A stretch of DNA of 58,931 bases from Acidobacteriota bacterium. Lineage in GTDB: Bacteria > Acidobacteriota > Blastocatellia > Pyrinomonadales > Pyrinomonadaceae. The stretch is from contig JAKQII010000378.1 of assembly GCA_029557535.1 (NCBI GenBank), positions 1 through 58,931 on the forward strand. The letters run 5' to 3'. Below, piece by piece: positions 11,019 through 41,319 of the stretch. The first letter of the stretch is position 1; the number at the start of each line of letters is the position of its first letter. Below the pieces are notes generated by a model that made no database searches, was not told where the DNA came from, and saw only the letters and a program-made list of their open reading frames with translations. The position numbers and the translations under genes were made by a program.

Positions 11019-11070
11019 ATTCCGCCCGCGATCCGTGGTCGACGGCTCGCGGGCGGCACAGGAAGTGGAT

Positions 11071-12438
11071 ATGAGCGAAGATAACAAGGACGATTGGGGA
11101 ATGACGATGCCGCATCAGCGGCTCGACGACGAAACGCGAGAGGCGATCGAGAACGGGGACCCGTTGCCGGCGGCTCCGGCTGCCGCCGATTGGGAAACGC
11201 CCGCCAATCCGGCTCCGGCTCCGGGGGACTTCGACAAAACGACGCCGAACATCAGGTTCGACTCGGATCTTCCGGCTGATGACTGGGGATCGACCGGGAC
11301 CCGGAATACCTCGGAGGAGAATAAAGACAATTGGCGAATGCCCGAACCGGTGTTCAGGATCTCAGCCGGGGAAACGCCGCGTTTCGATCGCCGATCGGAC
11401 CTCGGGGACGACGATTTCAGCGAGGGATACGGAACGCCGCCCGGCTCCGATCCGGTCGTCGCCGATGCCGCGCCGCAAGAAGCGCCGGTCGCCAAAAAGA
11501 GCGGCAACGGCAAGTTGGTCTTGATATTGGTCGGGGTCTTCGCAATTCTCGCGGTGTTCGCAGTCGGTCTGGTCGGAGCCTATCTGGTTTATTTCAATCA
11601 GAACTCGGAGATTCGATCGGCATCCAACACTTCGGCGCCGACGCCGGATTCGACGTCGAGCGAAACCAAGCCCGTTGCAATGCCCAGCGTTGCGGCGCTC
11701 CCGCAGTCGATCGACGTGAAAGGCCCGATGGTTCTCGTCGACGCCGGTGATTTTATGTTCGGCAGCGACAACGGCCCCGACGAATCGAGGCCGGCGCACA
11801 GTGAAAACGTTGCCGCTTTCTACATCGATAAGTACGAGGTTTCGAACGCCCAGTTCAAGGAATTCTGCGATGCTACCGGTCGCCCATATCCGGCGAGCCA
11901 GGATTGGGATCGCGAGTATTTCACGGCGCGGCCGAACGCGCCCGTGATCGGCGTTTCGTTCAATGACGCCCGGGCCTATGCCGAATGGGCGGGAAAACGT
12001 CTTCCGACCGAGGCGGAATGGGAGAAGGCGGCCTCCTGGGACGCATCGAAGCGCGTCAAGTTCGATTTCCCGTGGGGTAATTCGTTCGATAAAGGGAACG
12101 CCGCGTACGATCTCTCGTCGCCCTCCGACGTCGGCAGTTTTCCGGGAGGCGCGAGCCCGTACGGCGCACTCGACATGGCGGGAAACGTCGGTGAATGGGT
12201 CGACAATTACTTCAAGGCCTATCCGAACGCGTCGGGATCCAATCCCAATTTCGGCGAAACGAACCGCGTTGTTCGCGGCGGGCATTTTGGATCAAGATCG
12301 AGTGAAAATCTGAAGACCACGAAGCGCTCTTACATCCCTCCGGATTTTCAGCCGACACACGATCAGCCGAGCTACATCGGATTCCGTTGCGCGATCTCAG
12401 CAAACGATCCGCGGCTTGGAGACAAGCTTAACAAGTAA
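11071..12438 (+). CDS. Membrane-anchored SUMF1/FGE-fold protein with Thr-Pro motif tail
   Basis: A 455-residue protein from the ATG at 11071, which has AGGAAGTG upstream. Residues 1-145 are acidic, disordered and contain repeated short motifs (DDWGMTMPHQR, DFDKTTPNIRF, DNWRMPEPVFR). A single membrane segment is at about 148-174. Residues about 215-445 are a formylglycine-generating-enzyme (SUMF1) fold: GDFMFGSDNGPDESRPAH, the KRLPTEAEWEKAA motif, GNVGEWV and the end GFRC. Only the last Cys of the usual catalytic pair is visible, so formylglycine synthesis is doubtful; a structural or binding role like PvdO-type proteins fits better. The tail would face the cytoplasm and the SUMF1 fold the periplasm. 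Three FHA proteins lie just downstream, so the Thr-Pro motifs could be phosphothreonine ligands; no kinase is in the window. Confidence 0.75.
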   Translation: MSEDNKDDWGMTMPHQRLDDETREAIENGDPLPAAPAAADWETPANPAPAPGDFDKTTPNIRFDSDLPADDWGSTGTRNTSEENKDNWRMPEPVFRISAGETPRFDRRSDLGDDDFSEGYGTPPGSDPVVADAAPQEAPVAKKSGNGKLVLILVGVFAILAVFAVGLVGAYLVYFNQNSEIRSASNTSAPTPDSTSSETKPVAMPSVAALPQSIDVKGPMVLVDAGDFMFGSDNGPDESRPAHSENVAAFYIDKYEVSNAQFKEFCDATGRPYPASQDWDREYFTARPNAPVIGVSFNDARAYAEWAGKRLPTEAEWEKAASWDASKRVKFDFPWGNSFDKGNAAYDLSSPSDVGSFPGGASPYGALDMAGNVGEWVDNYFKAYPNASGSNPNFGETNRVVRGGHFGSRSSENLKTTKRSYIPPDFQPTHDQPSYIGFRCAISANDPRLGDKLNK

Positions 12439-12490
12439 CTTTAGCAACGCCCGGACGGCAATTTCCGCGCCGCCGAGCGTCAACAGGCGT

Positions 12491-13360
12491 ATGATGAATA
12501 CCGATACGACACAATTGAACCGCGCGGCTCATGCCCGAAGATCGCTTGTTTTGGCGACGGGGCTGTTCGTTGCCGCGTTTCTGGCCGCGCCGTTCGCGCC
12601 GGCCCAAATCGACGATTATTCCGCAAACAAACAGAAGGCGAAGACAGTGATCCGTCCGAAGGCAAAGCCGGTCTCGAAGAAGGTCGATATCCGCCGTAAG
12701 GTTACGATCACCCGCGTCGAGAAGAAAAGCCGCTCAAATTATTCAAAGAAACGGACGGTTCGGCGGATCGTCGTTCCGCTGTTGGCGGCCCAACTCCGGC
12801 TCTTGACGGTAAACGGCGAGGGAAAAGAGATCGAAACGAATCCGCTCGCGGCGTTCACTCCCGGCGATCGTCTCCGTCTTTCGATCAAGACGAACCAACG
12901 GGGCTATCTCTATATCGTGCGGCAGATGTCGCCCGATTCGGACGGCGAGATCATATTCCCGACGACCCTTGTCAATAACGGCAGCAATTACGTAGCGGCC
13001 AACACCGAGTATGTGTTACCGCGCGGGTGCCCGGCGGACTATGTGCCCGAGCCGCGCGACTGCGCATTGCGGCTCGCTTCGTTCGATGACGCTCCGCAAG
13101 AGTATTTCACGTTGATTTTTACGCGTGATTCGCTGGTTGATCTGCCCAATGACGTCAAGAACACGCGCGTCAGTCTCGCGAACCTGATGAGTGCCGGCAA
13201 ACTTGAAGCGAAGACGCTTGTCGGGCTGATCGACGACTCCGGTCAGGACCTTATTTCACAGCAGGGCGACACGCCGTATGCCGTCCGGATCGTCAATATC
13301 AATCCGAAGGACAACGAAGAGATCATCGAGACGTTCGTACTCGGTAAGATGAAGCATTAA
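12491..13360 (+). CDS. Exported DUF4384-type protein
   Basis: About 289 residues from the tandem ATGs at 12491/12494; the longer reading from 12416 would overlap the previous gene. A long basic N-region and a hydrophobic core (VLATGLFVAAFLAAPFAPAQ) give a signal peptide. A Lys/Arg-rich stretch follows. Residues from about 95 onward form a beta domain like DUF4384 (LRLSIKTNQRGYLYIVRQM, then GEIIFPT), a domain often fused or next to protein kinases and surface signalling genes. The context between the SUMF1-fold protein and the FHA proteins suggests a part in the same envelope module. Function unknown. Confidence 0.65.
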   Translation: MMNTDTTQLNRAAHARRSLVLATGLFVAAFLAAPFAPAQIDDYSANKQKAKTVIRPKAKPVSKKVDIRRKVTITRVEKKSRSNYSKKRTVRRIVVPLLAAQLRLLTVNGEGKEIETNPLAAFTPGDRLRLSIKTNQRGYLYIVRQMSPDSDGEIIFPTTLVNNGSNYVAANTEYVLPRGCPADYVPEPRDCALRLASFDDAPQEYFTLIFTRDSLVDLPNDVKNTRVSLANLMSAGKLEAKTLVGLIDDSGQDLISQQGDTPYAVRIVNINPKDNEEIIETFVLGKMKH

Positions 13361-13416: not shown

Positions 13417-14892
13417 ATGGCGAGTGCGCGGATAAAAATCGACGAAAAGGAAGTCGCGATCAGCGAGGAGGCGGTGACCTTCGGCCGCACGGGCGACAAT
13501 ACATTTTCGTTTGCGGGAAACTCGAACATCTCCCGCAATCACGCGCTGATCGAATACCGTGACGGCGCCTTCCATCTGCTCGATCTTGGCAGCAGCAACG
13601 GAACGACCCTCAATGGCCAACGTGTCGACGGCGACGCCGAACTGAACGACGGCGATTACGTCACGCTCGGAAACTCGGTCATCGTCCAGTTCTTTGAAGA
13701 GGAAGTTCCGGAAGAGGAGGCTACTGAAAAATCTCCGGCCGTCGCGGAGTCCGAAAAAAAAGCGCGTCGTTCGACCGCGATGCTCGGACTCACGGGCGGC
13801 GTGCTCGGAATTGCGGTCGTCGCCGCAGCCGTCGCCGGCTACGTCGCCTTGTCCGGCGGGAGCTCGTCGGGCTGCAACGCGACCGCGCGGATCGCCAGTC
13901 CGCGAAACGGTGATGTGATCTCCGATCAGACCGAGATCCGCGTCAACGTCAGCGATTCGACATGCGTCAGCCGGGTGGTCGTTACGCTCAACGGGCAGGA
14001 GATCGCGTCGTTCAGCGAAGCGCCGTACACGGCCACGCTCGATCCCGACAAGTTTGCCGATCTTTCCGACGGCCGGCTCTACCCGCTGCAGGTCGCGCTC
14101 GAAGACGTCGAGGGAAACCGAATTCCGCAGGACGTAGCCGTCAATTTGCAGTTCGAGACCCGCGAGATCGCGACACCGACTCCGGAAGAGATCGTCGAAA
14201 CGACCGCGACGCCGACGCCCAAACAACAGCAGGGCGGACAGACCTCGCTCGTCGAGACACGAACGATGACCGCAAATATTGTCAAGAAGTTCACCGGCGC
14301 CTCGGCACGTTACAATCTTTCGAATCCCGAGTTTCTGCAGGAGGTTCGGAAGAGCGTTCCCGAATTCACCGTCGACGGTTACTACGCGAGGGCGTCTCAG
14401 TACCGCGATGTCATTAACCAGTCGTTTGTTCGCGAGAAAACCCTCGACCCGTCACTTGGATACGTTCTCGCGATGAGCCGGAGCAAGTTTCAGGTGACTC
14501 AACAAGGTGTTGATGCGGGGCTTTGGCAGATGTCCGCCGATTTCGTGAATGCCAATGCCTACAATGTCGTCTGTCCGGTTTTCAGTTTGACGGATCCGAA
14601 TCAGGAATGCGCTTCGAGGGTCGCCGCGTTCTATATGAAGGACCTCGTTGACGCCTTCGACGGCGACATCGTTTATGCGGTCGCCGCGTTCGGCAAGACG
14701 CCCGGTGAAGCCAACGTGTTCAAGACGACGCTGCCTCCCGATCGGTCCGATTTTTGGAAAGTGCTGAGTGACGCCGGCATGAAAGATCGAGTCGCTCGGT
14801 TCTTTGCCGCCGCGATCGTGGCCGAGAATCCGCAGCGGTTCAAACTCAAGAACGACCGTCCGATCTCAGAGCTTTACCCTTTGCAGAACTGA
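13417..14892 (+). CDS. FHA domain, membrane segment, Ig-like and inactive SLT-like domain protein
   Basis: A 491-residue protein. Residues about 15-92 are an FHA phosphothreonine-binding domain (FGRTGDN, ISRNHA, SSNGTTLNG). A membrane segment lies at 122-146, so the FHA domain is cytoplasmic. Residues about 152-240 resemble a bacterial Ig-like domain with a Cys pair. After a Thr/Pro linker, residues about 285-491 are helical and align by eye with the soluble-transglycosylase domain of the next gene, including the ending (FFAAAIVAENPQRF). At the catalytic position the motif reads AMSRSKF, so the Glu is Arg355: a probable pseudo-enzyme that may bind peptidoglycan. First of three related genes; the next starts 3 bp after its stop. 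Confidence 0.75.
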   Translation: MASARIKIDEKEVAISEEAVTFGRTGDNTFSFAGNSNISRNHALIEYRDGAFHLLDLGSSNGTTLNGQRVDGDAELNDGDYVTLGNSVIVQFFEEEVPEEEATEKSPAVAESEKKARRSTAMLGLTGGVLGIAVVAAAVAGYVALSGGSSSGCNATARIASPRNGDVISDQTEIRVNVSDSTCVSRVVVTLNGQEIASFSEAPYTATLDPDKFADLSDGRLYPLQVALEDVEGNRIPQDVAVNLQFETREIATPTPEEIVETTATPTPKQQQGGQTSLVETRTMTANIVKKFTGASARYNLSNPEFLQEVRKSVPEFTVDGYYARASQYRDVINQSFVREKTLDPSLGYVLAMSRSKFQVTQQGVDAGLWQMSADFVNANAYNVVCPVFSLTDPNQECASRVAAFYMKDLVDAFDGDIVYAVAAFGKTPGEANVFKTTLPPDRSDFWKVLSDAGMKDRVARFFAAAIVAENPQRFKLKNDRPISELYPLQN

Positions 14893-14895
14893 CCT

Positions 14896-16335
14896 ATGGC
14901 CCGAGCGATACTTATTTGCCAAGGTGAATCAGGGACCCGCGAGATTCGTCTTGGTGAGGGACGGACGACGTTTGGGCGCGGCACCGACGCGAATGAACGG
15001 ATCGACGATTCGGGCCTTTCGCGCATCCACGCGAGCGTGTATTTCGAAAACGGCCGTTTGTGGGTCGTCGATGAGAATTCGACGAACGGCAGCCTGGTCA
15101 ATGGCGTTCGGGTCGGTTCATCGGGAACTCCCCTCGGCGAGGCCGACCGGATCGAGATCGGCAATCATACGAAGCTGACGGTCCGGCTCGATAGTGATGA
15201 AGCAGCGCCTGCGCCGGCCGCGCCAAAAACGGCTGCGGTGTCGGCGAGACCCGCCGAGTCGGTCGAATCGAGCGGATTTCCGATGCTGATCGTCCTTGGG
15301 GCGCTCGCGTTCGGACTTCTAGTGATCGGCGTCTCCGCTACCGTCATCGGAATTCGCTATTGGCCGGACAAACCCGCCGAAATCACGCAGGATCTTGAAG
15401 ACGAGGACCCGACCCCGACGCCTGACAAGGGGAACAAGAACGGGTCGAAATCGGCGACGCCCGAGAGTTCGTCAACCACGACGCCGGCCGGCAGCCCTGA
15501 AGATCCGATCGGGAACACGATCGTCGAGACGAGAACGAACGGCACGACGGTGGAGTTGCCGAAGGGCCGCTATCAGGACATGTCCGAGGCGGACAAGGAT
15601 CGTTACATCGCGGTAAAGGCTGAGAAGATCGCGCAGATCATCGGCAACCAGAAGGCCGAACCGATCCCGCCCGCGGCGGTCGCGAGGATCAAGCGCGACC
15701 TGAACGAGTACGTGCGGCGTTTGTCCCAGAGTAAGAACGACAACTGCAATCAGGGAAGTTGGACTCGCAGCGATTTCACGAGCGTGCTCCAGCGTGCGAC
15801 GAAAACCAGTCCGTTCGTTATCCGCAGTTTCAGGGCGAAAGGCCTTGAGCCTCAGATCGGAATATACGTCGCGATGATCGAAAGCGAACACTGTTCGTGC
15901 CTCACGAGTCCCACCGGCGCCAAGGGAATGTTCCAGTTTCTCGCCTCGACTTGGAGAGATTACGATCCCGAGAACAATCCCGACAACAGATGCGTTCCTG
16001 AAAAGGCGGCAAATGCCGGCGCGGATTATCTGAAGGTGCTGATCACGCGATACGGGACGGCGCCCGACAGCATCTTGCTGGCGATCGCGAGCTTTAACAG
16101 CGGTCAGGGAAACCTGAGCCGGAATCTTGACCAAGTGTTGTCCAACGCGGTTGGTCAGGATCGGAGTTTTTGGACCATCATGGCCAATACGGAATTGCTC
16201 GAAGGCAAGTCCGGCCAGCAGTTCAAAGGCGAGAACATCAAATACGTCCCGAAGTTCTTCGCCACCGCGATCATCGGCGAGAATCCGCAGGATTTCGGAG
16301 CGCCTATCAGGCCGCTTTCGACCTACACGCAATGA
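14896..16335 (+). CDS. FHA domain, membrane segment and lytic transglycosylase domain protein
   Basis: A 479-residue protein with the same plan as its neighbour. FHA domain residues about 20-98 (FGRGTDANERIDD, LSRIHAS, STNGSLVNG), membrane segment 128-153, an acidic Thr/Pro/Ser linker, then a soluble lytic transglycosylase domain at about 290-470. The catalytic Glu329 is in AMIESEHCSC, followed by the family motif GAKGMFQFLASTWRDY and the AIASFNSGQGNL motif. It should cleave peptidoglycan glycan strands in the periplasm and be tied to a cytoplasmic phosphothreonine signal. This is the only one of the three with an intact active site. The stop overlaps the next start. Confidence 0.85.
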   Translation: MARAILICQGESGTREIRLGEGRTTFGRGTDANERIDDSGLSRIHASVYFENGRLWVVDENSTNGSLVNGVRVGSSGTPLGEADRIEIGNHTKLTVRLDSDEAAPAPAAPKTAAVSARPAESVESSGFPMLIVLGALAFGLLVIGVSATVIGIRYWPDKPAEITQDLEDEDPTPTPDKGNKNGSKSATPESSSTTTPAGSPEDPIGNTIVETRTNGTTVELPKGRYQDMSEADKDRYIAVKAEKIAQIIGNQKAEPIPPAAVARIKRDLNEYVRRLSQSKNDNCNQGSWTRSDFTSVLQRATKTSPFVIRSFRAKGLEPQIGIYVAMIESEHCSCLTSPTGAKGMFQFLASTWRDYDPENNPDNRCVPEKAANAGADYLKVLITRYGTAPDSILLAIASFNSGQGNLSRNLDQVLSNAVGQDRSFWTIMANTELLEGKSGQQFKGENIKYVPKFFATAIIGENPQDFGAPIRPLSTYTQ

Positions 16336-17567
16336 CCGAACTTTGGCTGAACTTCAAGGACGAGTCGGGACACGACCGGCGCGAGTCGGTGGGGAAAAGT
16401 CCGTATTCGATCGGCCGGCAACCGGGCAATGATCTGACGATCGCCGATTCGCGGCTTTCGCGGACGCATCTCAAAATCGATCGTTTCGGCGAAGTTTTCG
16501 TGGTGTCGGATTGCGGCTCAAGCAACGGTTCGGAACTGAACGGATCGCCGCTCACTGAGCCTGAATCGCTCAAGAACGGAGACCGGCTCGTTCTTGGCGG
16601 CGGGTTTGTCATTTCGGTCGAGATGATAGCCGAGCAGGTCGAGTCGAGGCGTCCGCGGCGCACGGCCGCACCGCAAACCACGGTCGGGGCGGACTCGTCA
16701 TCGATCCCGACCGTCGTCTTCATCGTTGGCCCGTTGCTGGTTCTGTTCGTTTTGATCTGCGGCGGCGGCGTTTATTTTTTCGGAACGTCCGGGCCGGACA
16801 TTTCCCAGGTTTCGGAGACGCCCTTCCCGACGCCGATCATTGACTCCGAGACGCCTGAGAAGAGCCCCGATTCGAGTCCGTCGGTTTCGCCCACCGCCAG
16901 CGCGACCGCCGATCCCGATTCGTCCGTGACTCCGGCCGTCACGCCCGTCAATGACGAGGACCGCAAGATCGAAGAGAACTCGGCGAAGTTTCTCAGGAAG
17001 ATCGCACTGAGCGATCCGAACGCCTTCTTGGCAACGGCGCAGGTTCAGATCGTGAAGGGCAAACTGAGTCCGCTCAGAGGATCGTCCGCGCTCGGCGCTA
17101 ACCTCAAGGCCGTCAAGGCTAACGCCTCGCAGTTTGAGTCAATGGCATCGTCGCAAGGCCTGAAGGCCCAGTTTCTCGCCGCCGCGGCGCTGACGAAGAT
17201 CGGTAACCGGACCGGCGATCCGGTCGCGACGGCAAAGTCGATGCTGCCTTATCTTGGCGATCTGCGAATTTCGCTCGGCAATAGTCTATCCGACGACTGC
17301 CTTCTGATCATGGCCGATTACCTTCGTCGCGAACGCAAAGGGACCGGAGGAGGAGGCGGTCCGTCCCTGCAATCGATCCTCGAGGGCATTCCGCGATCGA
17401 AGATCGGCGGCGCCGATCCGAGGGAGATACGGACGATCTGGTTCTTGCGAAAAAACAACAAGATCTCGGAAGAATCGTACCAATTTGCCCTGACTTTTCT
17501 CGCGATCGGATCGATTATGCAAAATCCGTCCGATTTCGGCGTCAACTCTGAGCCCGTAACTTTTTAA
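16332..17567 (+). CDS. FHA domain, membrane segment and degenerate SLT-like domain protein
   Basis: A 411-residue protein; the start is the ATG at 16332, which overlaps the previous TGA (ATGA), and is chosen over a longer reading from 16170 because the FHA domain begins immediately (GRQPGND, LSRTHLK, SSNGSELNG). The membrane segment is at 126-150. The periplasmic part has a Ser/Thr/Pro linker and a helical domain of about 220 residues that keeps the length and the ending (AIGSIMQNPSDFG) of its neighbours but has no transglycosylase catalytic Glu motif. A Gly run interrupts it near residue 340. Likely an inactive paralogue that forms a complex with the two others. Confidence 0.75.
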   Translation: MTELWLNFKDESGHDRRESVGKSPYSIGRQPGNDLTIADSRLSRTHLKIDRFGEVFVVSDCGSSNGSELNGSPLTEPESLKNGDRLVLGGGFVISVEMIAEQVESRRPRRTAAPQTTVGADSSSIPTVVFIVGPLLVLFVLICGGGVYFFGTSGPDISQVSETPFPTPIIDSETPEKSPDSSPSVSPTASATADPDSSVTPAVTPVNDEDRKIEENSAKFLRKIALSDPNAFLATAQVQIVKGKLSPLRGSSALGANLKAVKANASQFESMASSQGLKAQFLAAAALTKIGNRTGDPVATAKSMLPYLGDLRISLGNSLSDDCLLIMADYLRRERKGTGGGGGPSLQSILEGIPRSKIGGADPREIRTIWFLRKNNKISEESYQFALTFLAIGSIMQNPSDFGVNSEPVTF

Positions 17568-17575
17568 GAGCAGTA

Positions 17576-18349
17576 GTGAAAGAAATCACCGAGTGGATCA
17601 CCGGAAACGTCACGTTGACCGTAAATGGACAACCGCTCGAACTGCAGATGACGGTTCCGGCGACTCCGGTCAAACCGCAAAGGATGCTTCCGATTTTTCA
17701 GCGAATGACCGATTCGTTCGTCGAAATGGGGGCGTCGGCGGCCCAAGCTCGGGGGCAAAATGTAAGTTGTCGTGCCGGTTGCGGAGCATGCTGCCGTCAG
17801 ATGGTTCCGGTCGCCGAGATCGAGACACACCGGCTCGCTGAAGTCGTCGCGGCGATGCCGGAACCTCAACGTAGCGAGGTTTATGAACGGTTCGACCGGG
17901 CTTTGGCGGAATTGGCCGAGACAGACATTTTCGAGCGTATGTCGGAATGGGAAGGGTTGAAGCCCGACGACCGGGAGCGGATCGTTCGGGAGTATTTCAA
18001 ATTGAACATACCGTGTCCGTTCCTTGAGGACGAGTCGTGCTCGATCCATCAGGAGCGCCCGGTTTCGTGTCGCGAGTACCTTGTGACCTCACCGGCTGAA
18101 CATTGCGCGGAGCTAAGTCCGGAAAAAATTCGGCGGATTGAAATCCCCGTCAAGCCGTCAACTCCGCTGCGCCATCTCGGGCAGACGAACAGAGTCGTCG
18201 GCGCCGATTTCATTCCACTCGTTTTAGCGTTAAGATGGGTTGAAAAGAATCCAGATCGTTTCCACGAGAAAAGCGGCGAAGAATGGATGGCGGATTTCTT
18301 CAGGATACTTACGAACAAGACCGTTCCAATCCCGCCGAAACTCCCGTAG
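17576..18349 (+). CDS. YkgJ-family cysteine cluster protein
   Basis: A 257-residue protein starting at GTG, 8 bp after the third FHA gene. It has the YkgJ (zinc- or iron-chelating) cysteine pattern: VSCRAGCGACCRQ near residues 63-75 and CPFLEDESCSIHQERPVSCREY around 145-165. The family binds a metal or Fe-S cluster of unknown function. The N-terminal 50 residues and the C-terminal 60 are outside the motif region. It is probably in the same transcript as the FHA genes. Whether it serves the secretion system is not known. Confidence 0.75.
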   Translation: MKEITEWITGNVTLTVNGQPLELQMTVPATPVKPQRMLPIFQRMTDSFVEMGASAAQARGQNVSCRAGCGACCRQMVPVAEIETHRLAEVVAAMPEPQRSEVYERFDRALAELAETDIFERMSEWEGLKPDDRERIVREYFKLNIPCPFLEDESCSIHQERPVSCREYLVTSPAEHCAELSPEKIRRIEIPVKPSTPLRHLGQTNRVVGADFIPLVLALRWVEKNPDRFHEKSGEEWMADFFRILTNKTVPIPPKLP

Positions 18350-18424: not shown

Positions 18425-19777
18425 ATGAGCAAGTACCGTAAGATCGTCTGGAACGAGGGGATGCTGATGACTCCCCATCACTTCCAGCAGTGGGACAACT
18501 ATCACGAAGAGTTGCTCAATTCACGAGTGCGTTCGATGATGCCGTACGAATACGGGATCCTCGATCTTCAGATCAATCGCGAGGCGATTGCCAACGGGAA
18601 TTTTCAGATCATCAACTGTCATGCCGTTTTGCCTGACGGGCTGATGGTCAACGTTCCGGACGCCGAGGCGGTCCCGGACCTTCGCCCCGTCGGCAATCAC
18701 TTCCACCCCGAGGCCGAGAAACTGGGCGTACATATCGCGATCCCCGCGCGGAAGACCGGCGAGGCGAACTTTCAGGCCAACGGCGCGAAACCGACGTCAA
18801 ACGTCCGGTTTCTTCAGGAAGGTCTCGCCGTCAAGGACGAAACGACCGGGACGAACGAGCAGACGCTCGCCTACGCCAGAAGCAATCTCCGGATCATTTT
18901 CGACGACGAAGTTCGCGACGGATTCACTTCGATGAAGATCGCCGAACTCAAACGAACCCCGACCGGGCAGCTCCAGATCAACGAAGATTACATTCCGGCT
19001 ACGCTCAAAACGTCGTCGTCGGCGTGGCTTGTCAGCATGTTGCGTCAGCTGGTCGAGATTCTGAACACAAAAAGCGGATCGCTCGGAGAACAGCGACGCC
19101 AGCGGAACGCTTCGCTCGCCGATTTCACGACGTCAGAGGTCGCGGTCTTCTGGCTCCTGCACACGATCAACTCGGCGATTCCCACAATGGCGCATTTTTT
19201 CAGGTCGCCGATGCTTCATCCGGAGCCGCTTTATCTTGAAATGGCGGAACTTGTCGGGAAGCTGATGACATTCTCGACGGAGCTATATCCGCGCGACATC
19301 GTCAAGTACGATCACGACGACCTGCATTTTACGTTCTTCAATCTTTCGACGCAGCTGAAAGAATTGCTCGAAACGGTAATTCCGAGCCGTTGCGTCCCGA
19401 TCCCGCTCGAAAAGACGCGCGACACTCTTTACGTCGGCCGGGTCGAGGACGAACGTCTGCTCAAGGAAGCTGGATTCTACCTTGCCGTTCGCGCCCAAAT
19501 GCCAGAGTCAAAGCTGATCGAGGGCGTGCCGCGTGTCGTCAAGATAGGTTCCCGGGACGTGATCGACACGATCATCGGATCGGCGCTGCCGGGCGTCGTG
19601 CTGACACATGCGAGCCCGCCGCCGGCCCCGATCCCGACACGCGTCGGTTTCCGTTATTTCATGCTCGACACGATCGGTCCGTATTGGGACGGGATCAAGG
19701 GTTCGAAGGTGATCGCGGTTTATGTTCCGGATGAGATCCCGGACGAGCTGCTTGAGATGTACGCCGTGAAACCATGA
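18425..19777 (+). CDS. tssK: T6SS baseplate subunit TssK
   Basis: A 450-residue TssK/ImpJ/VasE protein. The N terminus is typical (VWNEGMLMTPHHFQQWDNYHE), where the family docks to the baseplate wedge, and the C-terminal domain that contacts the TssJLM membrane complex is full length. TssK joins the TssF-TssG-TssE wedge to TssL and TssM. It opens the T6SS gene cluster. The ribosome site is weak. The stop is followed by a hairpin of 7-nt units and then tssL. Confidence 0.95.
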   Translation: MSKYRKIVWNEGMLMTPHHFQQWDNYHEELLNSRVRSMMPYEYGILDLQINREAIANGNFQIINCHAVLPDGLMVNVPDAEAVPDLRPVGNHFHPEAEKLGVHIAIPARKTGEANFQANGAKPTSNVRFLQEGLAVKDETTGTNEQTLAYARSNLRIIFDDEVRDGFTSMKIAELKRTPTGQLQINEDYIPATLKTSSSAWLVSMLRQLVEILNTKSGSLGEQRRQRNASLADFTTSEVAVFWLLHTINSAIPTMAHFFRSPMLHPEPLYLEMAELVGKLMTFSTELYPRDIVKYDHDDLHFTFFNLSTQLKELLETVIPSRCVPIPLEKTRDTLYVGRVEDERLLKEAGFYLAVRAQMPESKLIEGVPRVVKIGSRDVIDTIIGSALPGVVLTHASPPPAPIPTRVGFRYFMLDTIGPYWDGIKGSKVIAVYVPDEIPDELLEMYAVKP

Positions 19778-19780
19778 TGA

Positions 19781-19853
19781 CATTTGGGAATTGGGAATGC
19801 GGATTGGCGATTTTGTTCCCAAATCCGACATCCCAAATCCCAAATCCAAAATG
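19781..19853 (+). repeat. Heptad-unit intergenic hairpin (copy 1, tssK-tssL)
   Basis: Left arm 19781-19815 is built of units like TTTGGGAA and GCGGATTG; right arm 19817-19853 is built of CCCAAATC units. The arms are imperfect reverse complements that can form a stem of about 33 bp with almost no loop. The element ends 3 nt before the tssL start codon and takes the place of a Shine-Dalgarno. Confidence 0.75.
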
Positions 19854-19855
19854 TG

Positions 19856-20533
19856 ATGTCTGAACCAAGCAACAAGAATGATCTGGTGGCGTTTGCCGGG
19901 CCGGTTTTCGACCTGATCCTAAGGCTGAAGGCGGGGATCGTCCAACCGTCGATGGATTTGCGCCCGAAGATCGCGTCGTTGCTTGAGGATTTCGAGCGGC
20001 GTGCCGAGCGTTACAGGTTCAGCAGCAAGATCATCCAGGTCGCGAAGTTCGCGCTCGCGTCGTTCGTTGATGAAACCGTCCTGACCAACAATTTCCATCT
20101 CAAGGAAGAGTGGGAAAAGTACCCGCTGCAGCTCGAGTATTTCGGAGAACAACTCGCCGGCAACAAGTATTTCGAGAAGCTGGCGGCGATGCTGAAACAG
20201 ATCGACGTTACAGCGGACGCGGTCGAGGTTTATTACGTCTGTATGCTCCTTGGTTTCAAGGGCCGCTACGCCGTTTATGAGAAGGACAGGCTGCTTTCGA
20301 TCATGCAGCAGACGGCGAACGCGTTAGTGAAAGCAGGGAAGATCCGTCCGGTTGAATTGTCGCCGCATTGGCTGGCGGACGATCAGCCGGAACCGCCGAA
20401 ACCGAAGAAGATGCCCACCTGGGCAAAAGTCACGGCCTTCGGCGGTCTCGGATTCGCGTTCATCGTTTACTTGATCATGTTTGTGATGACGTCGTTTTTC
20501 TTGAGTGAAGCGATCAAAAAGCTTCCGTTCTGA
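19856..20533 (+). CDS. tssL: T6SS membrane subunit TssL (DotU/IcmH-like), short form
   Basis: A 225-residue DotU-like protein; the ATG at 19856 is chosen because upstream codons derive from the intergenic hairpin. Residues about 10-180 are the cytoplasmic helical domain (FASFVDETVLTNN is the conserved region). One C-terminal membrane helix is at about 190-220. There is no periplasmic OmpA-like peptidoglycan-binding extension, so wall anchoring must come from another protein. It forms the inner-membrane complex with TssM. Confidence 0.9.
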   Translation: MSEPSNKNDLVAFAGPVFDLILRLKAGIVQPSMDLRPKIASLLEDFERRAERYRFSSKIIQVAKFALASFVDETVLTNNFHLKEEWEKYPLQLEYFGEQLAGNKYFEKLAAMLKQIDVTADAVEVYYVCMLLGFKGRYAVYEKDRLLSIMQQTANALVKAGKIRPVELSPHWLADDQPEPPKPKKMPTWAKVTAFGGLGFAFIVYLIMFVMTSFFLSEAIKKLPF

Positions 20534-20601
20534 TTGTGTTTATCTGATCGGCTCGATGGCGCCGGCGCGCGCCAGGAACGCCGCGTTTCGGCCCGTAATT
20601 T

Positions 20602-23600
20602 ATGAGTTCGTGGCACGTCCAACAACTTAAGTTCGCCTTCGGCATCGGTGGCCTGATGTCATTCTACGGAATCGTCGGCTTCCTGACCTGGTTCGGAGGG
20701 CAAAAGTTGGGACTTCCGGTCAACACGCGGATCATGGTGATCATCGTTCTGCTGTTGACGCTTCCGTTCACGCTTCTCACCGGCTACGTCGTTAGCCGTC
20801 GTTCCAAGAAGAAGGAAGAAAAAGCGAAGAAGGAGGCGGAAGAGAAAAAAGAGGCGAAGGAGAGCGCTCCGGCAGCCGAGCAACCGGCGCCTGTGGCGGC
20901 GGCCAAGCCATCGGGCGAGAACCTGCAGGGCGCGGAAGAAGTGGTCAAATTTCTCCGCTCGTCGAACCTTGGCGACGGAGCCGACGCGCTTTACTCGTTG
21001 CCGTGGTACATCGTCGCCGGCGTTCCGAAATCGGGAAAATCCTCGGTCGTCGTTGGCTCCAATCTCAATTTTCAAGCGCTCCCGAGTCAACGTCAGTCGG
21101 AGATGAAGATCATCAAGCCGACTCAGAACGTCGACTGGCGGGTAACAACCGACGCCGTTTTCATCGACACCGCCGGCCGTTTCCAAACCGAGGGCGGCGA
21201 TACGGACGAATGGGCGTCGCTGCTGGAGACCATCCGCAAAACCCGTCCGAACAGACCGCTCGACGGGATGTTGCTATTTGCCGACACCGATCGCGTTCTC
21301 GAGGCAGACGAGCGTGAACTCGAGGAGTCGGCGAAGATCATGCGAACCCGGCTCGATGAGGCGATGCAGCGCCTGAAGGTCCGTTTCCCGGTTTATCTGA
21401 TCTTCAATCACGCAGACTCGATCGAGGGTTTCAGGGATTCGTTCTCGACATCGAAGAAGGAGGGTGAAACGCTCGTCTGGGGAGCGACGATACCGCTAGA
21501 AAAGAGCGAGAACGCGCACTCGATGTTCGACGACGAGTTTGCGCTGCTCAACGATTCGATCATGAAGCGCCGCCTCATGAGGCTCAGCGCTCCGTTCCCG
21601 CCGGTTCGCCAACTTCGCATCTTCAACTTCCCGCTTCATTTCAGTGCGGCCCGACGCAAACTGGGCGCGTTCGTGACGGCATTGTTCCGGCCGAACCCGT
21701 TCACTGAGAATCCGTTCTTCCGTGGATTCTATTTCACATCGACACCGGCCGCCGGTCGCGGCGACGCACCGGCGACGGTTGGCACGACCTATTTCGTCGA
21801 ACGCCTGATCCGCGACGTCGTGCTTCGCGACAAAGACCTCGTCCGTACATTTCAGGAGCAGAGGCAGCGGCCGCCGATTTTCGGTTGGCTTGTGACAATG
21901 CTCGGAGCCGCGATCGTCGCGACGCTTTTGATCATTGCCGGGGTCTCGACCTACAACAACCAGAAAATGCTGGACGATGCGTCCAAGCGCGCGCTTTCGG
22001 TGCTGAACAACGCGAAGGCTGACGTTAACCGGGATCCGCTGACGAAGAGCCCTGACGAGTCGACGTCGGAGATCAATGCGCTTGAGAACCTTCGTCTCCT
22101 GATGGATCAGCTCGACCGGTATAACCGTGAGGGCGCTCCGATCAAGATGCGGATGGGGCTCTATTCAGGAGATCGGATCTACACTGAGCGGCTGCTGCCG
22201 ATCTACTACACCGCGGTCAGCCGGCGTTTCATGGATCCGACACGGCGCCGGATGGAAGAGGAGATGAAGAAATTCGTCGCGAGTCCGCCGATAAAGGATT
22301 CGAAGCAGTTGTCGCCCGAGGAAGAGACCTTTTTAGGGGCAAATTACGATTTGCTCAAGGTGTACCTGATGCTCACCGACGAGTACCGCGACAAAGCGAA
22401 CGAGACTGACGTTTACAACACGCTCAACACCTACTGGTTCGCGTCGTCGAAGCTTCCGGAAAGTCTGGAGACGGACGCCGAGAAGCAGCTGAAATTCTAC
22501 GCGCGGCAAGTCGATCGTACCGAGGGTGTTGACCGGTTCCCGCGATACCAGGCCAACGGCAATCTCGTCACGGAGGTGAGGAACAAGCTCAAGGCGTTTC
22601 CGGCCGAACAACGTTATTACCGTCGAAAAGTGACCGAGATCTCGAAGGAGATCGACGCGAAGAAGATCATGTCGGTCGATGCGATCCTCCAGCGCGAAGG
22701 GGGCGTCACAGGGATCGTTACGGGAGACTACACGGTGCCGGGCGCGTACACGGTCGAAGGCTTCAAGGAAATGGAAAAGGCGATCGCGCTTTCCTCGACC
22801 GAACTCGCCGGCTGCGACTGGGTGATCGAAGAGAAGTGCGACGCCGTCGCCGAGGTCAGCAAGGTGGCGCAGACTGCCGACGGCGGTAAGATCCGCGACC
22901 GGTACTTCCGCGACTACTCGGATAAGTGGAAGACATTCACGAAAAGTATCCGAGTCAAACAGTTCAAAAAGGAGAATGCGGCGGAGAATGATCGTGTGGC
23001 GGCCAAAGAAGCGTTGTCGGTTCTCTCCTCCGCGAGTTCGCCGCTCAAGATTCTATTGATCGAGGTCTCGCGGAACACCAATCTGGCCGGCGGAGCTCCG
23101 CAGGGGCAGGGATGGTGGGACTGGATGACGAGCTTTTTCAGCTCCGACACCATGCCGACGACGGGTGCGGATTCTCAGGTCGTCAGGGACTTTCTGCCGT
23201 TGACGACGTATGTGCGCAGCGACAGCAAGGACAAGAAGTCGCCGATCGACGAATACGGTTCGGTGATCGAAACCGTTTCCGGCAAATACAGCACGATGGT
23301 CGACGACAACCGGATCGCCGAGTTGACGGCGATGCCGGAAGAGGAGCGCAACAAGCAGCTCAATCTGACGAACGCGACAACTTCGATCAACAACTCGACA
23401 AAAGCGTTCAACAAGGATTTGCCGTTCATCGCCGATCTGCTGAAACAGCCGCTCGACAATCTGAAAGCGCTATTCGGCGCGGATACGATCAAGCAGATCG
23501 CCGAACTCTGGAAATCCGAGGTCGTCCCGATCGCGCGCAAGGCAGAGGTGGGATATCCTTTCGAAGAATCCGACAGCAACGCCGATTTCGCGAACTTGCG

Positions 23601-24252
23601 GGAATACTTCGCGAAGGGCAAGGGCTTGACGAAGTTCTACGATGAGAAGCTCAAGCGCTATTTCGACGGAACTCCGGGCCAGCTGAAACTTAAGGATCCG
23701 CAGAATACGCCGTTCAGTCAGGATTTTGTGGATTATCTGAACAAGGCGCTCACATTGCGGCAGTCGCTGTTCAGCAAGGCTGATGACGTCAAGTTCACGT
23801 ACAACTTCGAACTTCTGAATCCGTCTGACGCCGTCGTCGAGATCACGATCGACGGTGTATTGATCTCGTCGAACGAAAAGCCGTCGGCTCCGATCGACTT
23901 CCCGGCGACAAGCGGAGGCGGCAGCGGCGTGATAATAAAGGCGCTCGGGTCCGGCACCGTTTCGACCTCCGGAACGCCTTCGGCAAATTCTTCCCCGGCA
24001 CCCGTCAATCCAGTGTCGACCCCGGCCAAATCGAATACGACCTCTGGTGACGAGAAGCAATTCCTCGGACCATGGGGGCTATTCAGGTTTATGGCCGCGG
24101 CGGGAATGCAGAAACAATCGGACAACTCGTACAAGGTTTCGTACCGGCTGAAGAACGGAAAGGTCGTTGAGGCCAAGATCACTCCTTCGGGCATCGACCC
24201 GTTCAACCGGGAAATCTACAAGCTGCGGGCGCCGGAGAACATATTGAGGTGA
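20602..24252 (+). CDS. tssM: T6SS membrane subunit TssM (IcmF)
   Basis: A 1,216-residue IcmF/TssM protein. Two membrane helices lie at about 12-33 and 42-64, then a highly charged Lys/Glu/Ala segment, then a cytoplasmic NTPase-like domain with an intact Walker A (AGVPKSGKSS, about residue 137) and a Walker B-like DAVFIDTAGR. A third membrane helix at about 427-449 leads into a large periplasmic region of about 760 residues with the IcmF-related and C-terminal domains. It spans the envelope and, with TssL and usually TssJ, forms the channel. It is preceded by a 68-bp gap after tssL. Length is in the normal family range. Confidence 0.95.
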   Translation: MSSWHVQQLKFAFGIGGLMSFYGIVGFLTWFGGQKLGLPVNTRIMVIIVLLLTLPFTLLTGYVVSRRSKKKEEKAKKEAEEKKEAKESAPAAEQPAPVAAAKPSGENLQGAEEVVKFLRSSNLGDGADALYSLPWYIVAGVPKSGKSSVVVGSNLNFQALPSQRQSEMKIIKPTQNVDWRVTTDAVFIDTAGRFQTEGGDTDEWASLLETIRKTRPNRPLDGMLLFADTDRVLEADERELEESAKIMRTRLDEAMQRLKVRFPVYLIFNHADSIEGFRDSFSTSKKEGETLVWGATIPLEKSENAHSMFDDEFALLNDSIMKRRLMRLSAPFPPVRQLRIFNFPLHFSAARRKLGAFVTALFRPNPFTENPFFRGFYFTSTPAAGRGDAPATVGTTYFVERLIRDVVLRDKDLVRTFQEQRQRPPIFGWLVTMLGAAIVATLLIIAGVSTYNNQKMLDDASKRALSVLNNAKADVNRDPLTKSPDESTSEINALENLRLLMDQLDRYNREGAPIKMRMGLYSGDRIYTERLLPIYYTAVSRRFMDPTRRRMEEEMKKFVASPPIKDSKQLSPEEETFLGANYDLLKVYLMLTDEYRDKANETDVYNTLNTYWFASSKLPESLETDAEKQLKFYARQVDRTEGVDRFPRYQANGNLVTEVRNKLKAFPAEQRYYRRKVTEISKEIDAKKIMSVDAILQREGGVTGIVTGDYTVPGAYTVEGFKEMEKAIALSSTELAGCDWVIEEKCDAVAEVSKVAQTADGGKIRDRYFRDYSDKWKTFTKSIRVKQFKKENAAENDRVAAKEALSVLSSASSPLKILLIEVSRNTNLAGGAPQGQGWWDWMTSFFSSDTMPTTGADSQVVRDFLPLTTYVRSDSKDKKSPIDEYGSVIETVSGKYSTMVDDNRIAELTAMPEEERNKQLNLTNATTSINNSTKAFNKDLPFIADLLKQPLDNLKALFGADTIKQIAELWKSEVVPIARKAEVGYPFEESDSNADFANLREYFAKGKGLTKFYDEKLKRYFDGTPGQLKLKDPQNTPFSQDFVDYLNKALTLRQSLFSKADDVKFTYNFELLNPSDAVVEITIDGVLISSNEKPSAPIDFPATSGGGSGVIIKALGSGTVSTSGTPSANSSPAPVNPVSTPAKSNTTSGDEKQFLGPWGLFRFMAAAGMQKQSDNSYKVSYRLKNGKVVEAKITPSGIDPFNREIYKLRAPENILR

Positions 24253-29173: not shown

Positions 29174-29659
29174 ATGTCGCGAATCGATAATGAAATTCGG
29201 GTCACGCCGTCGGTCCTTGACCGGCTGCTCGACTTCGAACCCGACGTCTCGCGCGAGGCGCCCAAGTCACGTTCGAAATCTCTCCGCGAGCTGAAGATAT
29301 CCGTGCGGCGCGATCTCGAGTGGCTTTTGAACACTCGCACCGTTCATGTCGAGATCGACGAGCGGCTGCAGGAGATCAAGAAATCGGTACTGACGTACGG
29401 ACTGCCCGATATCACCGGGATCAGTGCGAAAAACCAGAACGAACAAAAAAGACTGACAAAGGCGATCGAGAACGCGATCCGGATGTTCGAACCGCGGTTC
29501 ATTGACGTTCATGTATCGCTCGAGCCGGTGAATCAGATCGACCGGTCGCTGCGGTTTCGGATCGAGGCGAGGCTGAATATCGAACCGACGCCCGAGCCGA
29601 TTGCGTTCGATACGGTATTGCAACTCGGAAGCGGCGATTTCGAGGTTCGCGAGAAATGA
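29174..29659 (+). CDS. tssE: T6SS baseplate wedge protein TssE (gp25-like)
   Basis: A 161-residue gp25/TssE protein. The core motif is near residues 40-75 (SLRELKISVRRDLEWLLNTR), where the EXR-like residues that contact the sheath are expected, followed by LTYGLPDITG and the IRMFEPRFIDVHV ending. It sits 16 bp after the start of the hcp terminator tail and has no obvious ribosome site. Function: starts sheath polymerisation on the baseplate. Confidence 0.93.
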   Translation: MSRIDNEIRVTPSVLDRLLDFEPDVSREAPKSRSKSLRELKISVRRDLEWLLNTRTVHVEIDERLQEIKKSVLTYGLPDITGISAKNQNEQKRLTKAIENAIRMFEPRFIDVHVSLEPVNQIDRSLRFRIEARLNIEPTPEPIAFDTVLQLGSGDFEVREK

Positions 29660-29669
29660 AGGAGGATCG

Positions 29670-30095
29670 ATGGGGGCATACGAACAATGGAGCCGGCTAA
29701 CACCTGCCGAAAAGGCAGTGATCGCCTCGATGGGAGCAAACCCGCTGACGGCGATCAAGATCCCGCTGGTCAAAATGAGCAAGGATACGGCCTTCAACGA
29801 AACGACGTCGCGTTTCGGTTACAACGGCCATAACGACCGTTCAGATGCGTTTCGTCACTGTTTTTGGTCGGCGGTTCTGGCCCGTGACATCGGCTACTAC
29901 TGGGCAAAAGCGTTTACTGACGCGCACGAATCGAATCCCGGCCAGCCGCCCGAGGAAAAGGACATGGATTTGCACAACAACTCGGTCGGCCTCAATATCG
30001 GGTTCCACTATTTCATTCCGGATTCGAACTCGTCGCTTTCCGACAAGTGCTTCAAAGCGCTGCAGAACGGCGAGCTAAAGGTCCTGAACCCCTGA
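29670..30095 (+). CDS. Candidate T6SS cargo, DUF6973-like protein
   Basis: A 141-residue protein from the ATG at 29670 with GGAGG just upstream. No signal peptide. It contains a conserved-looking pattern of polar residues: RSDAFRHCFWSAVLARDIG, then TDAHESNPG and MDLHNNSVGLNIG. This His/Asp/Asn layout resembles the DUF6973 family, in which metal binding and hydrolysis are plausible but unproven. It lies between tssE and tssF, where structural genes are normally continuous, and is followed within 3 bp by an exported lipoprotein gene. This arrangement fits an effector-immunity pair. It could also be an accessory factor. Confidence 0.6.
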   Translation: MGAYEQWSRLTPAEKAVIASMGANPLTAIKIPLVKMSKDTAFNETTSRFGYNGHNDRSDAFRHCFWSAVLARDIGYYWAKAFTDAHESNPGQPPEEKDMDLHNNSVGLNIGFHYFIPDSNSSLSDKCFKALQNGELKVLNP

Positions 30096-30098
30096 TCG

Positions 30099-30584
30099 AT
30101 GAAGCGCCTGGCGTTGTTCTCATTGACCGTGTTTGTGTTTGCGTGCCTTTCCGGTCCGGGGTGTCGTGTTCAAACCGGACCCGAAGACGCACCGCTTCGC
30201 ACGGTCGCGGGCAAGGTCGGCGTCGGGCCCGAATGGGTGGAGATCGATCCCGTTCCCCCGCTCGAGGCGACGTCGAGATTCCAATTCATCGGACTTCGAA
30301 TACCGGATGTCGCCGGGACCGCGGATGACCGAAGGGAAACGATTCGCCTCCGCGACGGTTCACAACTGCGAATAGACCTGGAAATCGTCGGGACCGATGG
30401 CAACGTGACAAGGTTGTACCCGAACGGATTTGCGGAACGTGTGGAATTCGGCAAGCGGACGGAAAACAGGACGCGGCCTGAGGAGGCGGAATTCCGAGTT
30501 GGTTCCAAGTTCTCCAAGATTCGACTTCGATCCGATAAAGTCATTGAAATTCAAGAGGTTGTCTGGATGGAATCCGGATTTTAG
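30099..30584 (+). CDS. Exported lipoprotein, candidate immunity protein
   Basis: A 161-residue protein with a lipoprotein-type signal (MKRLALFSLTVFVFACLSG; Cys16 or Cys22 could be the lipidated residue). The mature part is beta-rich and charged (RLRDGSQLRIDLEIVG, FRVGSKFSKIRL). It starts 3 bp after the DUF6973-like gene. A periplasmic lipoprotein beside a cargo gene is typical of immunity proteins. The alternative, a diverged TssJ lipoprotein of the membrane complex, deserves testing because no other tssJ is present, but its sequence does not resemble TssJ to me. Confidence 0.55.
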   Translation: MKRLALFSLTVFVFACLSGPGCRVQTGPEDAPLRTVAGKVGVGPEWVEIDPVPPLEATSRFQFIGLRIPDVAGTADDRRETIRLRDGSQLRIDLEIVGTDGNVTRLYPNGFAERVEFGKRTENRTRPEEAEFRVGSKFSKIRLRSDKVIEIQEVVWMESGF

Positions 30585-36469: not shown

Positions 36470-36516
36470 AAAAGGGGCCGGTCGGATCGGGGAGGTCCCG
36501 TCTGACTGGCCCTTTT
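36470..36516 (+). terminator. Rho-independent terminator after tssH
   Basis: AAAAGGGGCCGGTCGGA (36470-36486) pairs with TCTGACTGGCCCTTTT (36501-36516) with G-U pairs and one bulge; the 3' arm ends in TTTT. It separates tssH from the cargo block that follows. Confidence 0.7.
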
Positions 36517-36535
36517 GAGTATTTGGGAGGTGCTG

Positions 36536-37066
36536 GTGGCAACCACGCGAAAGGAATGCATACAAAACGGTGAGACCTGTCCCGGACTTTTCATGGTTTC
36601 GGGAAATTCATCGGCGAGCGGAGACGCTCCGTGGTACGAAGCCTCTTCCCAATCGATGGTGGACACATATTCGGGATATATCGATATCGCGGCCTTCGAA
36701 TCGAAGGTCGATGCCCGGTTGATTCGCGCGATCATGTACATGGAAACGACACACGGCTATTACGACGCACCTCTTAGCCTGATCGGGAAAAACAAGTCGA
36801 TCCTGCCGATGAACATCAACGTCGAGTATTGGGGCAACACGTTCGGGACGCGCGAGGACATGCAGGATGCGCTCAAGAATGTCAGGGCCGGCGCCGAGAT
36901 GCTCCGTCGCATAATCCAAAATCTCCCGACGGACTCCCCGATCGAGAAGATCGCGACGCTTTACAACAACATCAACGCCACGACGGTCAACAACTACGGA
37001 AAGCGCGTCAAGAAGATCTATGACGAGAAACCCTGGTCCGAGTTAGCGGTTCCGGGACTGGAGTAG
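36536..37066 (+). CDS. Transglycosylase-like / muramidase-like protein, candidate T6SS cargo
   Basis: About 176 residues if it starts at the GTG at 36536, which has GGGAGG at the right spacing; a TTG at 36515 is an alternative. No signal peptide. The fold looks like a small lysozyme/SLT-type domain: DARLIRAIMYMETTHGYYDAP holds a likely catalytic Glu at the end of a helix, MNINVEYWG follows, and the last part has KIATLYNNINATTVNNYGKRV like the substrate-side motif of muramidases. It lies 27 bp before vgrG, so it could be a cargo hydrolase or an enzyme that helps the apparatus cross the wall. No dedicated immunity gene is adjacent, but lysozyme-inhibitor-like genes occur 10 kb downstream. Confidence 0.65.
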   Translation: MATTRKECIQNGETCPGLFMVSGNSSASGDAPWYEASSQSMVDTYSGYIDIAAFESKVDARLIRAIMYMETTHGYYDAPLSLIGKNKSILPMNINVEYWGNTFGTREDMQDALKNVRAGAEMLRRIIQNLPTDSPIEKIATLYNNINATTVNNYGKRVKKIYDEKPWSELAVPGLE

Positions 37067-41317: not shown

Positions 41318-41319
41318 TA

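Follow-up and report, generated by a model that had tools for sequence, protein, structure and literature searches.

The DNA examined here (the window) is a whole stretch of 58,931 nucleotides, positions 1 to 58,931 of the forward strand of contig JAKQII010000378.1, from an Acidobacteriota bacterium of the Pyrinomonadaceae (assembly GCA_029557535.1). It carries a cluster for a type VI secretion system (T6SS), and upstream of tssK three consecutive open reading frames on the + strand encode proteins of 491, 479 and 411 amino acids, here called proteins 1, 2 and 3 and together the trio. They follow one plan: an N-terminal FHA domain, a single membrane helix, a low-complexity linker and a periplasmic lysozyme-like C-terminal domain. 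Protein 2 is predicted to be an active lytic transglycosylase, and its two neighbours carry dead versions of the fold. Within class Blastocatellia, a name taken for our genome set from the names of matching public records, the trio is inherited all or none and is tied to the T6SS.

Genes 1 and 2 are separated by 3 bases, and genes 2 and 3 overlap as ATGA, with the ATG of gene 3 on the TGA of gene 2. This ATG at 16332 was chosen over the listed TTG start at 16170, because the N-terminus read from it is conserved among orthologues. Each protein has a hydrophobic segment near residue 125 and no signal peptide. Two features fit a topology with the N-terminus inside and the C-terminus outside: proteins 1 and 2 have conserved cysteines in their C-terminal domains, and proteins 1 and 3 have stretches rich in Lys and Arg N-terminal to the helix. 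A scan of the trio region for σ70-like promoters found none, such a scan being uninformative in this phylum. Among the PHROGs phage families, protein 2 has only generic lysozyme-domain matches, and proteins 1 and 3 have no match.

One predicted enzyme and two dead paralogues

Pfam finds an FHA domain in all three proteins (Table 1). The residues of the phosphothreonine site (Gly-Arg, Ser-Arg-x-His and Asn-Gly) are retained in nearly all orthologues of each, and membership in PF00498 is thus supported by both the profile match and the site. As for the periplasmic parts, we file protein 2 alone under the family 1 lytic transglycosylases, because protein 1 reaches 17.3 bits against PF01464 (SLT), below the curated cut-off, and protein 3 gives no match. 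Pfam finds nothing C-terminal of the helix in protein 3, and no OmpA-like domain (a TagL-type peptidoglycan anchor) in any member of the trio. Protein 1 has an additional Ig-like Big_7 domain (8e-12), which was absent from an earlier sequence-only reading of this DNA.

The catalytic segment is AMIESEH with Glu329 in protein 2 and AMSRSKF with Arg355 in protein 1. Protein 3 has no Glu, and in its alignment with protein 2 a gap covers everything from the Glu position up to GMFQF. This pattern is not due to chance, being kept across dozens of species. The Glu of protein 2 is retained in 54 of 54 orthologues. The same column of protein 1 holds Arg in 45 of 47 orthologues, Gln in one and Glu in one, and the aligned column of protein 3 is hydrophobic (Leu, Ile or Val) in 45 of 46 and Glu in none of the 46. 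The sole protein 1 with a Glu belongs to a divergent lineage (L111) and points to an active enzyme as the ancestor of protein 1.

In protein 2 the invariant residues are the Glu, the Gln of GMFQF, the Asn of the YNSG segment, and the tail motifs ENxxYVP and GExPxxFG. Such a set is expected of a working enzyme, and protein 2 is predicted to be one. The dead partners are under purifying selection as well, with dN/dS of 0.17 and 0.34 compared with 0.14 for the enzyme, although these values are rough, as they come from one congeneric pair with dS near 1.

Table 1 Features of the trio and its surroundings in the window.
Feature	Position	Strand	Remarks
Protein 1 (FHA1)	13417..14892	+	FHA, membrane helix, Big_7 Ig, pseudo-SLT; Arg355 replacing catalytic Glu
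FHA domain, protein 1, residues 20-85	13474..13671	+	Pfam 2.8e-17; Gly/Arg/Ser/His/Asn phosphothreonine-site residues retained
Pseudo-lytic-transglycosylase domain, protein 1, residues 276-491	14242..14889	+	AlphaFold2 pLDDT 94.2; best solved matches MltD, Slt, MltF, MltE
Arg355 codon, protein 1	14479..14481	+	Catalytic-Glu position
Protein 2 (FHA2)	14896..16335	+	FHA, membrane helix, SLT; predicted active lytic transglycosylase
FHA domain, protein 2, residues 24-89	14965..15162	+	Pfam 3.5e-14
SLT domain, protein 2, residues 314-414	15835..16137	+	Pfam 1.6e-14, 53.9 bits vs cut-off 21.3
Glu329 codon, protein 2	15880..15882	+	Catalytic Glu
Protein 3 (FHA3)	16332..17567	+	FHA, membrane helix, degenerate SLT fold without active-site segment
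FHA domain, protein 3, residues 25-89	16404..16598	+	Pfam 1.9e-15
Degenerate SLT-like domain, protein 3	16938..17564	+	AlphaFold2 pLDDT 94.9
FGE-sulfatase protein	11035..12438	+	Likely ATG at 11071; Pfam 1.2e-50; cytoplasmic Thr-rich tail, membrane helix, FGE domain; candidate phospho-ligand or scaffold
DUF4384 protein	12416..13360	+	Pfam 9.8e-9; N-terminal hydrophobic segment; upstream-module member in some genomes (synteny)
CxxCxxCC protein	17576..18349	+	Pfam 1.1e-9; often between trio and tssK (synteny)
tssK, tssL, tssM	18425..24252	+	Immediately downstream; NCBIfam TssK 7e-115, DotU/TssL 4e-44, TssM 5e-150

Fold and descent of the dead domains

Profile-profile comparison with hhalign relates domain 1 to domain 2 (E 2.7e-22), domain 3 to domain 2 (1.9e-8) and domain 3 to domain 1 (1.4e-6). 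AlphaFold2 models of both dead domains have high predicted local distance difference test (pLDDT) scores (Table 1). For domain 1 the best Foldseek match is MltD (E 1.2e-4), and VIA gives Z 13.9 with a root-mean-square deviation (rmsd) of 4.0 over 181 aligned residues. With domain 3, Foldseek by itself gives nothing better than E 0.13, a weak match. VIA places this domain on MltD with Z 9.8 and rmsd 3.4 over 150 aligned residues, and the first 33 listed rows are all lytic transglycosylases or goose-type lysozymes. Because a middling Z is common among helical proteins, the profile match weighs as much as the fold for this domain.

In a maximum-likelihood tree, domains 1 and 3 each form a single group (100/99 support), and the catalytic domains group with kinase-fused and free SLT domains; the order among groups is not settled in this tree, which carries a long-branch warning. 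The dead domains are two ancient, separate clades of common descent with the enzyme domain.

The sequence-only reading had claimed three adjacent FHA-membrane-SLT-like genes, with the site kept in the middle protein, replaced by Arg in the first and lost in the third, and had seen in them one enzyme with two pseudo-enzyme partners. All of this is borne out by the reading frames, the FHA matches, the profile and fold link of protein 3, and the sites kept across orthologues. Unrelated C-terminal folds, which it had named as an outcome that would speak against it, were not found, as both models match solved lytic transglycosylases.

Co-inheritance with the T6SS

We searched 60 relatives with the periplasmic part of protein 2. 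Strong matches (E < 1e-40) came from 17 of these genomes, each of which has TssK, and the 39 that lack TssK gave none. A match at 4.5e-40 is a kinase fusion of genome G014. When 347 genomes were drawn from the phylum, full-length protein 2 was found in 22, which are exactly all 22 class genomes with TssK, and not in the 19 class genomes without it; in G228 of this draw protein 2 is split over two contigs, and the protein 2 of G038 is counted although its FHA part is absent. For the 75 class genomes overall, the enzyme is present in 30 of the 34 with TssK and in 0 of the 41 without (Fisher 6e-17, ignoring kinship). The exceptions with TssK are G033, which is 71% complete and has an enzyme fragment, G017, where only about 290 bases of the contig remain upstream of tssK, and G009 and G015, whose TssK is divergent. 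G197 and G366, both of genus g9, have neither TssK nor the enzyme. Counting our own window, 30 of 30 enzyme-bearing genomes carry both partners 1 and 3.

Linkage alone fails to explain this co-occurrence, because the pattern holds where the genes are dispersed. They are scattered over two to four contigs, yet all present, in G018, G023, G029, G038, G042 and G336. Proteins 1, 2 and 3 and the tss genes lie on four separate contigs in G023, the trio and the tss cluster on different contigs in G029, and in G018 protein 3 adjoins tssK with proteins 1 and 2 elsewhere. The contig of G018 that carries proteins 1 and 2 also encodes a 532-residue protein joining VipA-like and VipB-like sheath parts (L054:13675-15273).

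Synteny agrees, as 39 of the 45 contiguous trios in public genomes stand immediately before tssK. The genetic tie expected of a T6SS accessory wall enzyme is thus found in both co-occurrence and synteny. All public loci with an FHA-SLT match are from Acidobacteriota, and from Pyrinomonadaceae, Blastocatellia or Chloracidobacterium where named more precisely. The dedicated T6SS link that had been suggested from the sequence therefore holds, and a trio common in genomes without T6SS, the other outcome that had been set against it, did not appear in the survey.

The trio could consist of housekeeping wall-remodelling genes that merely adjoin the cluster. The catalytic clade does have members unrelated to T6SS, namely kinase fusions and free SLTs in T6SS-negative genomes, and solitary FHA-SLT genes exist in other classes. 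However, presence and absence of the trio track TssK even where the genes are unlinked, and we consider this explanation very improbable.

Because solitary genes for an FHA domain, membrane helix and SLT domain occur away from tss genes, the FHA-SLT fusion alone is not specific to T6SS; the trio is. The history of the fusion thus reaches beyond the T6SS trio, which forms a distinct set found across the class. Examples of the solitary genes, from other Acidobacteriota families, are at L176:8243-9652, L178:9000-10538 and L179:8939-10528.

Natural fusions

In two loci (L111 and L107) a single chain with FHA domain, membrane helix and SLT domain runs on into a type-3 dead domain. Their scores with hidden Markov models (HMMs) of types 2 and 3 are 334 and 153 bits in L111, and 328 and 162 bits in L107. 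Another locus (L110) has a chain of 1403 residues that joins an FGE domain, a type-2 catalytic domain (334 bits) and a type-1 dead domain (171 bits), the last with Lys replacing the Glu. Because natural fusions usually join parts that act together, the trio likely forms one physical complex in the periplasm.

The gene of the L110 fusion comes immediately after genes for a Ser/Thr-kinase-like protein and a MoxR-like ATPase (L110:373-7448), and this row looks like a separate signalling system that uses the same wall domains; the kinase-like and MoxR-like names come from reading the translations. Elsewhere, SLT domains of the same clade are joined to kinases across a membrane helix (L055:9316-11475, L056:8647-10752, L057:9896-11977 and L058:9492-11504), mostly in T6SS-negative genomes, and Pfam confirms the kinase of the L055 fusion. 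Each of these four genes is near a free SLT gene of about 273-297 codons on the opposite strand.

Proposed role at the cell wall

We propose that the trio is a T6SS-dedicated lytic transglycosylase complex, anchored in the inner membrane and recruited through phosphothreonine, which opens the wall for the T6SS membrane complex. We hold this to be fairly probable, with modest confidence. Protein 2 would cleave the glycan strands of peptidoglycan. Proteins 1 and 3, being catalytically dead, would hold, position or restrain protein 2, and they may grip peptidoglycan. At the assembly site, a component of the T6SS would carry phosphothreonine, and the three cytoplasmic FHA domains would recruit the complex to it. 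A local cut would then open the wall for the TssL-TssM membrane complex, which would be the part of the trio in envelope passage.

The best candidate for the FHA ligand would be the Thr-rich tail of the neighbouring FGE-protein. This cytoplasmic tail precedes the helix and in this genus has repeats such as DDWGMTTPNV and FDQTTPNINIP, with 1-4 TPN[V/I/F] motifs observed compared with 0.01-0.04 expected. Other genera no longer have the periplasmic FGE domain, and a tail with a W-x-MPEP-x-F motif and a helix are found at the same position. The tail is put forward as a candidate ligand and nothing further. Phospho logic of this kind has precedents, as Fha binds phospho-TssL in Agrobacterium (PMC3953482) and a PpkA-Fha pathway operates in Acidovorax (PMC12607579). 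The kinase fusions of the same catalytic clade also count in support of the proposed complex.

A more specific version is that the enzyme is a heterotrimeric lytic transglycosylase in which the dead paralogues are obligatory, and that a cytoplasmic phospho-signal on the membrane-anchored Thr-rich tail licenses local cleavage of peptidoglycan. We offer this version tentatively, and would rather bet against it in its full form.

Several observations weigh against the proposed T6SS complex recruited through phosphothreonine. No Ser/Thr kinase or phosphatase gene is found in the T6SS cluster, and about 30 kinase genes of the genome include none on this contig and no specific candidate. Outside this genus, the FGE tail shows a clear TTPN repeat in just one near relative, and a generic motif with a hydrophobic residue at Thr+3 was rejected because most orthologues show no enrichment of it. 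The FHA domain has been lost from proteins 2 and 3 of G038, which keep the helix and the periplasmic domain (L052:12949-13917 and L052:13983-14780), and is still present in protein 1. Finally, solitary proteins with FHA domain, helix and SLT domain in G236, G168 and G301 of other Acidobacteriota accompany a T6SS without their genes being beside tss genes.

The loss in G038 suggests that one FHA domain can suffice, or that the FHA domains serve recruitment rather than gating of each subunit. The sequence-only reading had suggested a phosphorylation-gated wall-cutting complex. The complex is made likely by the natural fusions, but the gating fares worse, given the cluster without kinase or phosphatase and the FHA loss in G038.

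The kinase fusions suit inward signalling equally. The trio might be a checkpoint that senses the state of the wall in the periplasm and times the firing of the T6SS by passing this state inward through phosphoproteins bound to FHA, with cutting as a secondary activity. On the other hand, an FHA domain is a reader of phosphates and not a writer, the cluster has no kinase, and the active-site residues are invariant. We find this reading improbable.

The main rival is that the trio is an anchor and not a gate, with the main task of fastening the membrane complex of the T6SS onto peptidoglycan; elsewhere this is done by OmpA-like extensions of TagL or TssL. The dead domains would bind glycan, the active one would trim or process the anchoring strand, and the FHA domains would be constitutive scaffolding. 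Dead lysozyme folds can retain sugar binding. TssL here is short and without an OmpA domain, and Pfam finds no TssJ lipoprotein in the whole genome, nor in 29 T6SS-bearing relatives of the class. A motility machine of Myxococcus engages peptidoglycan by means of a lytic transglycosylase (PMC11444678). However, glycan binding by protein 3 is doubtful, as the whole active-site segment is missing, and the enzyme keeps its Glu in all 54 orthologues. Nor does the trio explain the absence of TssJ, because of 7 other Acidobacteriota genomes that have a T6SS but no trio, 6 also show no TssJ; for the same reason, the idea that the trio replaces TssJ is unsupported. An anchor seems unlikely to us, if less so than a checkpoint, and we keep to the wall-opening complex as the preferred reading.

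Neighbouring genes

Downstream of the trio the order is CxxCxxCC, tssK, tssL, tssM, tagJ, tssA, tssB, tssC, hcp, tssE, tssF, tssG, tssH, vgrG and PAAR. Family models confirm TssK, TssL, TssM, TagJ and PAAR; the remaining tss names come from reading the translations.

Some other genes of the cluster may encode effectors. Between tssE and tssF are a DUF6973 protein (29601-30584) and then a small lipoprotein-like gene, a candidate effector and immunity pair. A small protein between tssH and vgrG (36515-37066) matches SLT weakly (0.0072), has a Glu within MYMETTHG, and is possibly a second wall enzyme or an effector. After vgrG, a protein of 604 residues (39503-41317) with no Pfam match has a metallopeptidase-like HEVGH motif and is a candidate effector. 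It is followed by a possible lipoprotein (41311-42399), and PAAR is next at 42411.

Comparison with known systems

Acidobacteriota are a phylum of soil bacteria whose T6SS is barely studied. The T6SSs that have been studied pass their own cell wall without lysis in different ways, with a borrowed MltE or with TagX. In PMC5841429, which cites Santin and Cascales 2017, the lytic transglycosylase MltE is reported to cleave glycan for T6SS assembly in enteroaggregative E. coli, and this is what we propose for the trio. MltE (EmtA) also shares the lysozyme-like SLT fold, with Z 12.8 to the domain of protein 1 and 7.5 to that of protein 3. However, it is a housekeeping outer-membrane lipoprotein without FHA domain or dead partners, whereas the trio is predicted to be tripartite, T6SS-dedicated and in the inner membrane.

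TagX, the T6SS peptidoglycan hydrolase of Acinetobacter, is like the trio a T6SS-dedicated, membrane-anchored wall enzyme encoded in the cluster (PMC5061870, PMC10564176). It differs as an L,D-endopeptidase of LAS type without SLT, for which FHA or pseudo-enzyme partners are not described. An assignment of the trio to TagX was rejected, as Pfam finds SLT and no peptidase domain.

The cytoplasmic part resembles Fha1/TagH, the T6SS component of the PpkA/PppA threonine-phosphorylation pathway, in its FHA domain with conserved phosphothreonine residues (PMC3953482, PMC12607579). TagH is, however, a different protein without SLT, and the cluster of the trio has no PpkA. Against the TagH/Fha1 model (TIGR03354) the three proteins score 44.9, 35 and 47.7 bits in the FHA region only, far from the cut-off of 120.25, and this assignment was rejected too.

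Of the family 1 lytic transglycosylases, MltD, Slt and MltF are the best solved structural matches to both dead domains, and protein 2 passes PF01464. Those are active enzymes without FHA, unlike the trio, in which two of three are dead. The kinase fusions (e.g. L055:9316-11475) have in common with the trio the SLT clade, the FFAAAIIGENP tail and a phospho-signalling domain across one membrane helix. They differ in having a kinase instead of FHA, in showing no dead partners, and in their mostly T6SS-negative genomes.

The sequence-only reading had held the FHA-SLT fusion to be undescribed as a T6SS component. No description was found in open-access literature on FHA with SLT or on T6SS in Blastocatellia, most subscription journals being outside this coverage; the fusion by itself is not particular to T6SS, as the solitary genes show. 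Because the trio is inherited all or none, the idea can be tested directly, and the natural fusions give a prediction of the domains that are in contact. Co-inheritance suggests a dedicated device, possibly steered by phosphorylation, that opens or grips the wall where the T6SS is built.

Thus, the trio resembles MltE and TagX by its proposed role and Fha1 by its cytoplasmic part, and the tests made place it in neither TagX nor TagH. The Fha proteins described in studied T6SSs are phosphothreonine readers without wall domains, whereas the trio unites phosphothreonine reading and wall domains in the same polypeptides and adds two conserved dead enzymes.

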